Source: a virus. Taken from it: DNA of 22,305 bases. Shown one piece after another: positions 2-3,545 of this stretch (positions are counted from its first letter, which is position 1; every line of letters begins with the position of its first letter). The notes under the pieces are model-generated. The model was given only the letters and a program-made list of their open reading frames with translations. It made no database searches and was not told where the DNA came from. Position numbers and translations under genes: made by a program. The stretch spans positions 1 through 22,305 of the IMG/VR virus record IMGVR_UViG_3300021962_009101; one strand, 5' to 3'.

Positions 2-616
2 AACAATCCTTTTGATGTTAAAAACTACAAGAGTCAATTGCCTACAAAACCAGGCGAAAAGGCTGGTTTTGATTCCAAAAAAATCTCTACAGGTACTGTT
101 TATTCTAGAAAGCCTGTTAAAGATGAGCCAATGAAAAAAGAAGAAGTTGAACAGATTGATGAGTTGAAAAAAACAACAGTTAAATCATATCTCGCAAAAA
201 AGATGGCGAGTTTGCCCGGCAAAGATCCGAAAAAAGATCAAAAAGATATGATGAAAGCGCATCATCGTGTAACTGGTGTTAAACCAACATCGGAAGAAGT
301 TGAACAGGTTGATGAGCGTACTTTAACCAAAGGCGAAACCAAAGAAAAAGAGCGCATCGTTAAAGGCATGAAAAAATCTTTCAAAGGGTTCAAACAGCGT
401 TACGGTGAAAAAGCAAAATCAGTAATGTATGCTACTGCTACAAAGGCAGCTAAAAATGAAGAAGTTGTAACAGAAGCAAAAAGACCAGAAAGTGACACAG
501 TGCCTTTTCTCACAAACGGTGATAGTAAACCCTTAGCTCATGCAAAAGATTTGGCCAAAAAATCTCTAAAAAGATTAAAAAGTGAAATGATGGGAAAAGC
601 AGGAACTTCTGAATAA
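2..616 (+). CDS. Lys/Glu-rich phage protein with EEVEQ(I/V)DE repeats, 5'-truncated
   Basis: The reading frame is open to the left edge, so the N-terminus lies outside the window; a TTG inside it at 38 is not a convincing start. The visible 204 residues are highly charged and rich in Lys and Glu, with no membrane segment. Two copies of EEVEQ(I/V)DE occur (visible residues 47-54 and 98-105). After the first comes an LKKTTVKSYL segment of a kind I recognise from low-complexity proteins in marine T4-like phages. The next gene carries the same motif 10 nt downstream, so the two probably act together. Known: T4-type prohead protease cuts after (I/L)-x-E. Inferred: the IDE/VDE ends may be processing sites in a head-internal or scaffold-like protein. 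The function is not established. Confidence 0.75.
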   Translation, partial: NNPFDVKNYKSQLPTKPGEKAGFDSKKISTGTVYSRKPVKDEPMKKEEVEQIDELKKTTVKSYLAKKMASLPGKDPKKDQKDMMKAHHRVTGVKPTSEEVEQVDERTLTKGETKEKERIVKGMKKSFKGFKQRYGEKAKSVMYATATKAAKNEEVVTEAKRPESDTVPFLTNGDSKPLAHAKDLAKKSLKRLKSEMMGKAGTSE

Positions 617-1681
617 GGTATTTTCATGAAAAAGTCAGAACTAATCAAGACAATATTGAAAGATCGTAAGCCAACATTTGGCACCGATCCAAATGATCCT
701 TGGTCAGCAAAAGCAAATATTACGGAAGATGCTTATTTAAACAAATATCTGAAATCAAGAGGCATCAACCCTGAATTTGCAACAAAAGATCAAAAAGTTG
801 CACATTCAAAAACTGGTGAATTTAAAAAATGGAAAAATGATCATTTATCTGATGTATCCATTAAAACAGAAGCGTATGTTGATAAAAGAGATGTTGTTAC
901 ATTTGATATTCCATTCTTAATTCGTGTTTTAGAATATTCCCGTGAAGATGCAAAGACGGATATGGATTTGCACAATGTTGTGACAAAGTTAATACAAATT
1001 CGTAATAAGGGTGTCTTGACAATGAAAGACTATTCTTTCGTCACTAGATTAAAAGAACATTTTGAAATTACTGATATTATAACAGAACAAGAAATAAAAA
1101 ATCCTGTTAAAAAAGATTGGGAAAAATACGCTCAAAATCGTTCTGAAATTTGGAGAAGAAAGAGATTAAAGATTGATGAACTTGATGTAAGCACGTTAAA
1201 AAGTTATGCAACCAAAGCAAGAGCCGATGCAGAAAAATTAAGTAAACAAGGTGATGCAGCATCTAAACGTTCTTCTACAAAGTCTATGCAAACTGCACTT
1301 GATAAGTTTAGAAAAGCAACAAAACGAAATATGGGTGCTGCGAGCGCAGAATCTAAAGCAAGAGTAAAAGAAGAAGTTGAACAAGTTGATGAAGATTTAC
1401 GCAAATGGTTTAGCAAATCTCATCCAGAAGGTGGTTGGAAAAGAATTAATAGCAAAGGTGAAGCCATAGGTCCTTGTGCTAGAGAACCCGGTGAACCAAA
1501 ACCTAAATGTATGTCTAATGAGAAACGTGCCAAATTAAGTAAGAGTGAACGAGCTTCTGCCGTTGCTGCAAAACGCAAACATGATCCAGTTGCAGATCGT
1601 TCTGGTAAGGGTGGTAAACCGGTTAATGTATCCAATTTTGGCAAAGGTAAATTGGGTGAAGAAGTTGATCAACTAGATGAA
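140..1681 (+). repeat. Dispersed 24-nt repeat encoding EEVEQ(I/V)DE, four copies in two genes
   Basis: Copies lie at 140-163, 293-316, 1370-1393 and 1658-1681, all in the same coding frame as their gene. The nucleotide sequence is close to gaagaagttgaacargttga in the first three; the fourth has diverged (EEVDQLDE). An extra short match, IDELDVST, lies at 1172-1195. Each copy sits between otherwise different modules, so the motif looks like a linker or a processing site rather than a fold. Confidence 0.75.
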
Positions 1682-2140
1682 AAGAATAAACCCACCAATC
1701 CATCACTTTGGTCAAGAGCAAAATCTATGGCTCGTTCTAAGTTTGATGTTTATCCATCAGCATATGCAAATGGTTGGGCATCAAAATGGTATAAGTCTAA
1801 AGGTGGTGGTTGGAAGTCTGTAAAAGAAGATAAATTTCAAGATCCTTATGCAGCCACACAAACTGTTGGTTCAGAAGTAGATACTGATGTTTTACCAACA
1901 AGAAAACGTGAAATGACTAAATCTGCGAGAATGATCAAGTCAATTTACAAAAAAAAGAGAGTCAAAGAAGAATTATACGACCACGAAAAAGAAAATAAAG
2001 GCGGAAAATATGGTGAAAAATCAGACGCAGCTTTTGTTTTAAGGGGTGGCAAAACAATGACGGGAACAAATCGAGATACAATAGAAATTGATCCGATGAT
2101 GAAACCTAGACCAGGGAAACCTGATCCTTTAAAAAGATAA
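626..2140 (+). CDS. Large Lys-rich modular phage protein with DE-ending repeats, probable virion or head-associated
   Basis: 504 residues, ATG start. Modules in order: an N-terminal region (1-80); a hydrophobic conserved block with DVVTFDIPFLIRVLEYSRED (about 88-140); an IDELDVSTLKSYATKA segment (from 183); EEVEQVDE (249-256); a Trp/Gly/Cys block containing GPCAREPGEPKPKC (about 263-296); EEVDQLDE (345-352); and a Trp/Tyr-rich block with FDVYPSAYANGWASKWYK (about 359-398). The last two blocks resemble short basic modules that recur in proteins of marine T4-like phages and large viruses; I do not know their function. The motif repeats and segment style match the upstream gene, which suggests a shared origin. 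Its position before a structural gene supports a virion role. No enzyme motif is seen. Confidence 0.8.
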   Translation: MKKSELIKTILKDRKPTFGTDPNDPWSAKANITEDAYLNKYLKSRGINPEFATKDQKVAHSKTGEFKKWKNDHLSDVSIKTEAYVDKRDVVTFDIPFLIRVLEYSREDAKTDMDLHNVVTKLIQIRNKGVLTMKDYSFVTRLKEHFEITDIITEQEIKNPVKKDWEKYAQNRSEIWRRKRLKIDELDVSTLKSYATKARADAEKLSKQGDAASKRSSTKSMQTALDKFRKATKRNMGAASAESKARVKEEVEQVDEDLRKWFSKSHPEGGWKRINSKGEAIGPCAREPGEPKPKCMSNEKRAKLSKSERASAVAAKRKHDPVADRSGKGGKPVNVSNFGKGKLGEEVDQLDEKNKPTNPSLWSRAKSMARSKFDVYPSAYANGWASKWYKSKGGGWKSVKEDKFQDPYAATQTVGSEVDTDVLPTRKREMTKSARMIKSIYKKKRVKEELYDHEKENKGGKYGEKSDAAFVLRGGKTMTGTNRDTIEIDPMMKPRPGKPDPLKR

Positions 2141-2913: not shown

Positions 2914-3300
2914 ATGTTTGATGATTTGAATGAAAATAATTTTTTAATGTATGCAATGAAGTGTTATACATCACCGCAATACATTGTTTCTGAGTTTGAA
3001 GGAGATATCAAACGAACTAAGTATTTGAAAAGACTTTTTAGAAGATATAAAGTAACAAAATTACTAAAAGAACGCTTGATATTAAATCACATCATATTAT
3101 TAAACAATGTTTTTGGACCAGAAGCAACATCTAGAATATTGTTTTATAAAATAGATGAAAAAGATTATGATATATTAAAAACTTTTCTTTGTTATCTAGA
3201 TATAATGCCGGATTTTATTTACGGCATAAATGGAAAAAACATTTCAACAGCTGAAATACCTTTAGATTTAAAGGCTGCAGAAATATTAAGGAACATATGA
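2914..3300 (+). CDS. Conserved phage protein of unknown function (MYAMKCYTSPQ family)
   Basis: 128 residues, probably soluble and alpha-helical. The segments FLMYAMKCY near the N-terminus, LKERLILNHIILLNNVFG in the middle (about residues 48-66) and ILKTFLCYLDIMP (about 87-99) are typical of a small protein found throughout T4-like marine phages. I know of no function. There is no clear ribosome binding site because the terminator lies just upstream; the ATG at 2914 is the first in frame. The stop overlaps the next start (ATGA). Confidence 0.8.
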   Translation: MFDDLNENNFLMYAMKCYTSPQYIVSEFEGDIKRTKYLKRLFRRYKVTKLLKERLILNHIILLNNVFGPEATSRILFYKIDEKDYDILKTFLCYLDIMPDFIYGINGKNISTAEIPLDLKAAEILRNI

Positions 3301-3545
3301 AAAATTTTAAAGATTTTTTAAATGAAAGATGTTGGCCAGGCCACCGGCCAGTTCCAGGCAAAAGGCCTTATTCAAAAGGTAGTTGTGTCAAAGAAGATGG
3401 AATGTCTGCTGCACCAGCAAATGTTGTTTCAAGTGGAGCAGTAGCTGGTTCTGGAGGTCTTGGTGGTGAACCAGGAGTTAAACCAAAAAGTAAAAAAACT
3501 TCAATTATGATGAATATGTTTAAACGCAAATTACCGAAGGTGTAA
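3297..3545 (+). CDS. Small phage protein, Cys/Pro-rich N-terminus
   Basis: 82 residues. It begins MKNFKDFLNERCWPG and continues with GHRPVPGKRPYSKGSC, a pattern recognisable from small proteins of T4-like aquatic phages. The middle is a Gly/Ala/Ser linker (about 35-60) and the C-terminus is basic (KKTSIMMNMFKRK). No membrane segment or enzyme motif is present. It overlaps the upstream gene by 4 nt, which suggests translational coupling. The Cys pair (residues 12 and 30) could bind metal or form a disulfide, but this is a guess. Confidence 0.7.
   Translation: MKNFKDFLNERCWPGHRPVPGKRPYSKGSCVKEDGMSAAPANVVSSGAVAGSGGLGGEPGVKPKSKKTSIMMNMFKRKLPKV

Follow-up and report, generated by a model that had tools for sequence, protein, structure and literature searches.

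Two adjacent genes of a viral DNA fragment encode strings of small modules joined by short acidic linkers. The best reading of the evidence is that their products are head-targeted polyproteins, which the prohead protease gp21 likely cuts in trans, giving small peptides that are mostly basic. An earlier note, made from the sequence alone, had proposed that each polypeptide is cut into several small head-internal or packaged peptides; this remains the best-supported reading and now extends from a single locus to an arrangement across the clade, but the cleavage itself is inferred and no cut has been observed. The analyzed DNA, hereafter called the window, is the whole 22,305-base IMG/VR virus record.

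Modular proteins and octapeptide linkers in the window

The gene order of the window matches a segment of T4-like cyanophages (compared with Syn9, S-SM1, and S-SZBM1) that runs from the cytidylyltransferase neighbourhood to an Ig-like head protein and a DUF7207 protein and on to primase and nrdA/nrdB. T4-like phages rank with the most abundant marine viruses. The full-length form of ORF1, with 265 residues (MINIKK...VKEILQQEALKGDQHKID...), was obtained from a near-identical relative. No Pfam family was found for ORF1 or ORF2, the sole matches being PHROGs of unknown function, and modular genes of this kind currently carry only hypothetical annotation. An AlphaFold model of ORF2, for which 13 sequences were aligned, reached a mean pLDDT of 52.5 and a pTM of 0.20 and was uninformative on linker exposure.

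Table 1. Modular proteins, candidate prohead-protease sites, and modules of the window (a slash marks the cut site or module junction)
Feature	Position	Strand	Remarks
ORF1	2..616	+	Modular Lys/Glu-rich protein; 5' end cut off by the contig; 204 of ~265 aa present
EEVEQIDE	140..163	+	ORF1; predicted prohead-protease site, cut predicted after 163, ahead of LKKTTVKSY module
EEVEQVDE	293..316	+	ORF1; predicted site ahead of RTLTKGE module
Module M5 (RTLTKGETKEKERIVKGMKK...MYATATKAAK)	317..454	+	Glu immediately upstream in 42/42 distinct junctions
VTE/A (VTEA)	467..478	+	ORF1; further candidate site
ORF2	626..2140	+	Modular protein; complete; 504 aa; at least 5 candidate sites
NITE/DAYLNKYL	716..727	+	ORF2; candidate site
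IITE/QEIK	1076..1087	+	ORF2; candidate site
KIDE/LDVSTLKSY	1169..1180	+	ORF2; candidate site ahead of M1 module
EEVEQVDE/DLRKWF	1370..1393	+	ORF2; predicted site ahead of module M12
Module M12 (DLRKWFSKSHPEGGW...)	1394..1630	+	In other proteins directly after an N-terminal targeting sequence (MKSFKQFVNE/DLRKWF)
EEVDQLDE/KNKPTNP	1658..1681	+	ORF2; predicted site ahead of module M3; variant octapeptide
Module M3 (KNKPTNPSLWSRAK...FDVYPSAYANGW)	1682..1816	+	Site missing from the same module in non-T4 viral contigs
Small protein	3297..3545	+	T4-type capsid-targeting N-terminus MKNFKDFLNE/ (3297-3326), then RCWPGHRP module (RCWPGH at junction)

The earlier note had reported four octapeptide copies in the two adjacent Lys/Glu-rich proteins, and this held: three are exact EEVEQ(I/V)DE copies and one is the variant EEVDQLDE, all correctly placed. 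When the two proteins were shuffled 20,000 times with their composition preserved, none arose. That the copies are encoded by near-identical 24-nt sequences also held as an observation, the later copies differing from the first by 1, 3, and 5 bases. What is not supported is that this near-identity points to recent DNA duplication: the idea was rejected, as the similarity is explained by codon bias and by the diversity of coding sequences elsewhere. Codon bias in the window is strong (GAA 84%, CAA 83%, GAT 84%, GTT 55%) and, we infer, would alone give much of the 24-mer identity. In the wider data set the motif is encoded by 90 different 24-mers with free third positions, and the octapeptide is therefore conserved at the protein level.

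The note had also overlooked further sites of the same logic (NITE, IITE, KIDE, and VTEA) and the capsid-targeting-like N-terminus of the nearby small protein (Table 1). At the position aligned with NITE, other family members have INE, LNE, IDE, LDE, IAE, ISE, ITE, or VTE. Among the window sites, IDE, LDE, and ITE fit the (L/I)-x-E rule and VDE is a conservative departure from it. The predicted pieces are 31-152 residues long and every one has a net positive charge.

Conserved residues at module junctions across IMG/VR

A degenerate DNA search for EEVEQxDE in IMG/VR recovered at least 120 stretches. Of the predicted proteins that were read, nearly all are strings of small modules in differing orders, and hundreds of IMG/VR contigs encode proteins of such interchangeable modules. 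The linkers that join them include EEVEQ(I/V)DE, EEVELDE, EEAEQIDE, EEVEYIEE, and similar sequences. Module content differs strongly between relatives, with modules shuffled among proteins. One pattern match, in contig L027, was discarded because the protein is unrelated and its acidic stretch fits only by chance.

As a safeguard against circularity, relatives of three unrelated window modules (M3, M5, and M12) were fetched without the use of the motif, the residues just upstream of each module were read, and distinct upstream sequences were counted (n = 143). These motif-independent junctions showed Glu at P1 in 143/143 cases and I, L, V, or M at P3 in 126/143. For M3 (KNxPTNPxLW), all 57 distinct upstream sequences had Glu at -1, with I or L at -3 in 56 and V in one; for M5 (RTLTKGE), 41 of the 42 had I, L, V, or M at -3. 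For M12 (DLRKWF), Glu was again found at -1 in 44/44, while -3 was I, L, V, or M in 28/44 and mostly T in the remainder (ITRE, ITKE). Junctions of the latter kind, such as HITRE/DLRKWF, count against the gp21 reading. Positions -2 and -4 and the EEVEQ part vary widely, and EEVEQ is present in only 13/143 upstream stretches. Junctions such as LME, IEE, LVE, and FISE have almost no DNA in common, yet x-E is kept. The junction rule is thus directly shown by the counts. T4 gp21 cleaves after L/I-x-E (PMC9026906), and the conserved junction positions, P1 Glu and an aliphatic P3, match this rule.

One rival explanation is that the octapeptide is a flexible acidic linker that merely serves as a spacer, or a recombination seam whose brief DNA homology lets modules be shuffled. 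In its favour, modules are clearly shuffled between proteins and the window copies are near-identical in DNA. Against it stand the many motif 24-mers with their free third positions and the junctions that share almost no DNA. It also leaves unexplained why P1 Glu never varies, why non-T4 contigs lack the site, and why there is a link to the N-terminal targeting sequences described below. We consider this explanation very unlikely.

Depletion of sites inside modules was given only limited weight. A first test on three modules found 3 internal sites against ~40 expected. A wider test counted internal [ILV]xE sites in 15 module families thinned at 80% identity, where depletion held only for M1 (2 observed vs 15 expected), M5 (2 vs 7), and M12 (1 vs 9). 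The opposite was seen in M7 (12 vs 5.5), M13 (3 vs 1.6), M15 (7 vs 4), and M17 (20 vs 13.6), and all 15 families together gave 50 sites vs 64 expected.

Two side observations concern individual modules. M2 and M6 (e.g., in L015, L026, and L013; HKIDANKNGKIDAHDF and DPVGQEDxDIDNDGDxD) resemble the calcium loops of EF-hands. In Syn9 gp114 (L001, 20088-21419), the annotated GTG start falls inside an RTL...VMYATA module, so the public record probably places the start of this gene too far downstream.

Co-occurrence with gp21 and lack of the site in contigs without T4 markers

Among 34 module-chosen contigs of at least 60 kb, 16 carried the S77-type protease gp21 (PF03420) together with gp23 (PF07068) and 18 carried neither, with no discordant case. 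Likewise, in earlier motif-chosen sets gp21 was present in all eight contigs with a complete gp23. In the propeptide region of gp23, where T4 has FLTE/A, L-x-E was found in 12/12 examined contigs and isolates (eight motif-bearing contigs plus Syn9, S-BM3, S-SM1, and S-SZBM1). Both the co-occurrence and the L-x-E of gp23 are shown. Most gp21-negative contigs are T4-like genome fragments, as judged by gp43 (~50% identity) or gp17 (70%). No gp21 gene lies in the window itself, a 22-kb fragment that does not include the head block.

As a control, we took six large contigs (L209, L211, L217, L219, L221, and L222) that carry M3 and have no gp20, gp21, gp23, gp17, or gp43; their non-T4 status rests on these missing markers. 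The site was absent in 6/6, with M3 either starting the protein (MANKPNNPALW) or coming after AKGG or RGKQ. Ten M3 contigs with a T4 marker had Glu before the module in 10/10, and P3 was I or L in all but one, which had F. The contrast between T4-like contigs (10/10) and contigs with no T4 marker (0/6) is shown with a Fisher exact p = 1.2e-4.

These results bear on several claims of the earlier note. The prohead-protease reading, based on the resemblance of the IDE, VDE, and LDE ends to the (I/L)-x-E site of gp21-type proteases, held up in every comparative test run. The note had suggested asking whether gp21 accompanies the motif in related phages and whether a known cleaved protein of the same phages shares it: gp21 is present wherever head genes are, and gp23 has L-x-E at the matching place. 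It had held that the motif in phages without gp21 would refute its proposal. The contigs that lack gp21 are mostly T4-like fragments, and the six non-T4 contigs lack the site.

In the contigs without T4 markers, M3 (FDVYPSAYANGW) forms an N-terminal or internal domain of other proteins (L209, L211, L219, L221, L222 (around 4001), and L217). Some M3-bearing contigs without T4 markers have proteins that, judged by eye, resemble those of crAss-like phages, and L217 also encodes a stand-alone M12-like module (SLNEWFGKGKKGDW). The presence of M3 and M12-like modules in such contigs indicates that modules move among unrelated groups of viruses. The divergent T4-like contig G082 (114 kb) carries LSE ahead of M5, has no detected gp21, and is possibly incomplete. 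In the divergent T4-like contigs L256 and L257 (114 and 67 kb), modular proteins and MKLTELLTE-type N-termini were seen, and gp20, gp21, and gp23 were not found; it is possible that these contigs house a divergent head protease.

Capsid-targeting N-termini and their exchange with the linker

The N-terminus of T4 IPII and IPIII is MKTYQEFIAE/A, and in the targeting sequence of IPIII residues 4 and 7 are reported to serve targeting and residues 8 and 10 processing (PMC9026906). We defined the register of this capsid-targeting sequence (CTS) as hydrophobic or aromatic at 4 and 7, aliphatic at 8, and Glu at 10. The pattern M..[FYWL]..[FYWL][ILVM].E was found at 149/2,332 distinct N-termini of the fetched contigs and at internal Met in only 8/13,229 cases, with a shuffle maximum of 5, an enrichment of ~100-fold at N-termini. 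V occupied position 8 in 14 of the 149. This test against internal Met and shuffles took the place of a coarse N-terminal comparison of modular with other proteins, which found no difference because targeting N-termini occur on both protein classes.

The small protein of the window fits the register (MKNFKDFLNE vs T4 MKTYQEFIAE). ORF1 and ORF2 do not have it and show only amphipathic starts (MKKSELIKTILK in ORF2, MINIKKFDSVALTVKEILQQE in full-length ORF1). The same modules are shown to follow either an N-terminal targeting sequence or the internal linker: M12 occurs behind an N-terminal targeting sequence (Table 1) and behind the octapeptide, M3 in MLRFKDFIVE/KSIPTNP and EEVDQLDE/KNKPTNP, and the RCW module in MKKLKDFISE/RCWPGYKP and EEVEQVDE/RCWSGYKP. 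Modules also recur as stand-alone proteins behind targeting N-termini. The linker therefore looks like the processing half of the CTS without its targeting half.

The second rival explanation is a docking motif, already offered as the alternative when the octapeptide was first described. An acidic octapeptide would bind scaffold, the inner capsid wall, or another partner and gather the modules uncut. In support of this, EEVEQ upstream of x-E is conserved beyond a bare protease rule, acidic stretches could bind basic core proteins, and related proteins are present in virions. On the other hand, only P1 Glu is invariant and only P3 restricted to aliphatic residues at the 143 junctions, the remainder being variable; the octapeptide lies in register directly at the module start; it has no aromatic residues at the equivalents of 4 and 7, which carry targeting in T4 IPIII; and it is interchangeable with a processed N-terminal sequence. 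The pure docking version is weakened because the internal motif keeps the CTS processing residues (8, 10) and not the targeting residues (4, 7), and we regard it as unlikely.

Targeting-like N-termini (MKFRDFI-x-E; e.g., in L019, L034, L364, and L385) were also observed on enzyme-like proteins of T4-like contigs, which are cytidylyltransferase-like, ligase-like (LKHIHHAEDRP...MKYDGSPS), or HAD-like. This suggests that enzymes are packaged in these heads. In the open-access literature searched, we found neither a description of a CTS in cyanophages nor a paper printing the EEVEQ(I/V)DE motif.

Related proteins in published virion proteomes

Virions of S-SM1 contain T4-GC190, a cytidylyltransferase (PMC3037559), and the S-SM1 gene labelled GC190 starts with MKKFSAFLNE/AERS. 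In virions of S-SZBM1, S-SZBM1_139 (4 peptides, 10.5% coverage) and S-SZBM1_140 were detected (PMC9146016). The former is a modular protein at a place syntenic to the window ORFs and contains several (I/L)-x-E sites as well as a CW module; the latter starts with MRFRQFIIE/AV. The large modular protein S-SZBM1_194 is not among the proteins reported in these virions (PMC9146016). The published proteomes thus place a related modular protein and cytidylyltransferases with targeting-like N-termini in virions and do not show cutting, as they give coverage only and no fragment N-termini.

These data bear on a third rival, in which the modular proteins are gp67/gp68-like scaffold or core proteins cut into pieces that leave the head to free room for DNA. 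Consistent with it, gp67 and gp68 are absent from cyanomyoviruses (PMC2984593), and in T4 the core proteins are cleaved to multiple fragments, most of which leave the head (PMC9026906). Against it, a modular protein and proteins with targeting N-termini were detected in mature virions, modules recur as stand-alone proteins behind targeting N-termini, and composition varies strongly among relatives, unlike that of a core scaffold. We judge this rival improbable.

Comparison with known systems

The substrates of T4 gp21 (gp22, gp67, gp68, gp23, gp24, Alt, and IPI-IPIII) follow the same (L/I)-x-E/ logic, and the likeness extends to head genes beside gp21, small basic internal products, and L-x-E at the same place in gp23. 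However, each packaged internal protein of T4 is a single protein from which one or both ends are trimmed, whereas here many different modules are strung together and every junction has a site; module content differs between phages, and VDE widens the P3 rule. The CTS of IPII and IPIII has the same key positions (4, 7, 8, and 10) as the MKxFKxF(I/L)xE N-termini of the small window protein and of many proteins of related phages. In T4 it is found on three small internal proteins, but here each clade has dozens of unrelated bearers (cytidylyltransferases, ligase-like and HAD-like proteins, and short modules), and the cleavage half is also present inside proteins, where the targeting half is lacking.

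Polyvalent proteins of phages and conjugative elements (Iyer et al. 2017, PMC5512222) are likewise multi-domain proteins with shuffled modules. Their packaging, and their release in the form of separate units, is either predicted or known, and the authors compare them with polyproteins (PMC5512222). Unlike the modules described here, which have 25-100 residues and no embedded peptidase, polyvalent proteins combine large enzymatic domains with a peptidase of their own, and cutting in our case would be in trans by the prohead protease. Neither an embedded peptidase (MPTase) nor named conflict domains were found in ORF1 or ORF2, with no Pfam match and PHROGs only. The ejection proteins of phiKZ and SPN3US (PMC5694885) are also head proteins cut after Glu before ejection, by a distant gp21 homologue; their motif is A/S-x-E, and mostly one long N-terminal propeptide is removed, without serial cuts between modules.

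Proposed mechanism and implications

Under the polyprotein reading, ORF1 and ORF2 would be made as module strings by a T4-like phage and would enter the prohead core during head assembly, by a route that is unexplained since the CTS register is missing. A gp21-type protease would cut in trans after the Glu of (I/L/V)-x-E, at the end of each EEVEQ(I/V)DE-type linker, giving about four pieces from ORF1 and about six from ORF2. Within the proteins, the linker would correspond to the cleavage half of the T4 CTS (MKTYQEFIAE/). The pieces would stay in the head with the DNA or be ejected into the host, as the basic internal proteins of T4, and a role in DNA condensation or early host take-over is inferred for them. 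Among the points against the proposal, VDE lies outside the strict T4 L/I rule, and EEVEQ is more conserved than a bare L/I-x-E needs.

A bolder reading, to which we incline by a modest margin, is that this is a general polyprotein system of T4-like marine and freshwater phages, in which the prohead protease also processes a large, fast-shuffling set of small modules placed behind an N-terminal CTS or in tandem behind EEVEQ(I/V)DE linkers. If this is true, each virion would carry dozens of different short peptides, most of them basic, which accompany the DNA into the host. The polyprotein reading, if right, would assign the modular genes to the head interior, with gp21 as their processing enzyme and with exactly defined product ends, and long proteins that cannot now be interpreted would become a predictable catalogue of packaged peptides. 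It would also provide a sequence rule for spotting injected proteins in any T4-like genome.
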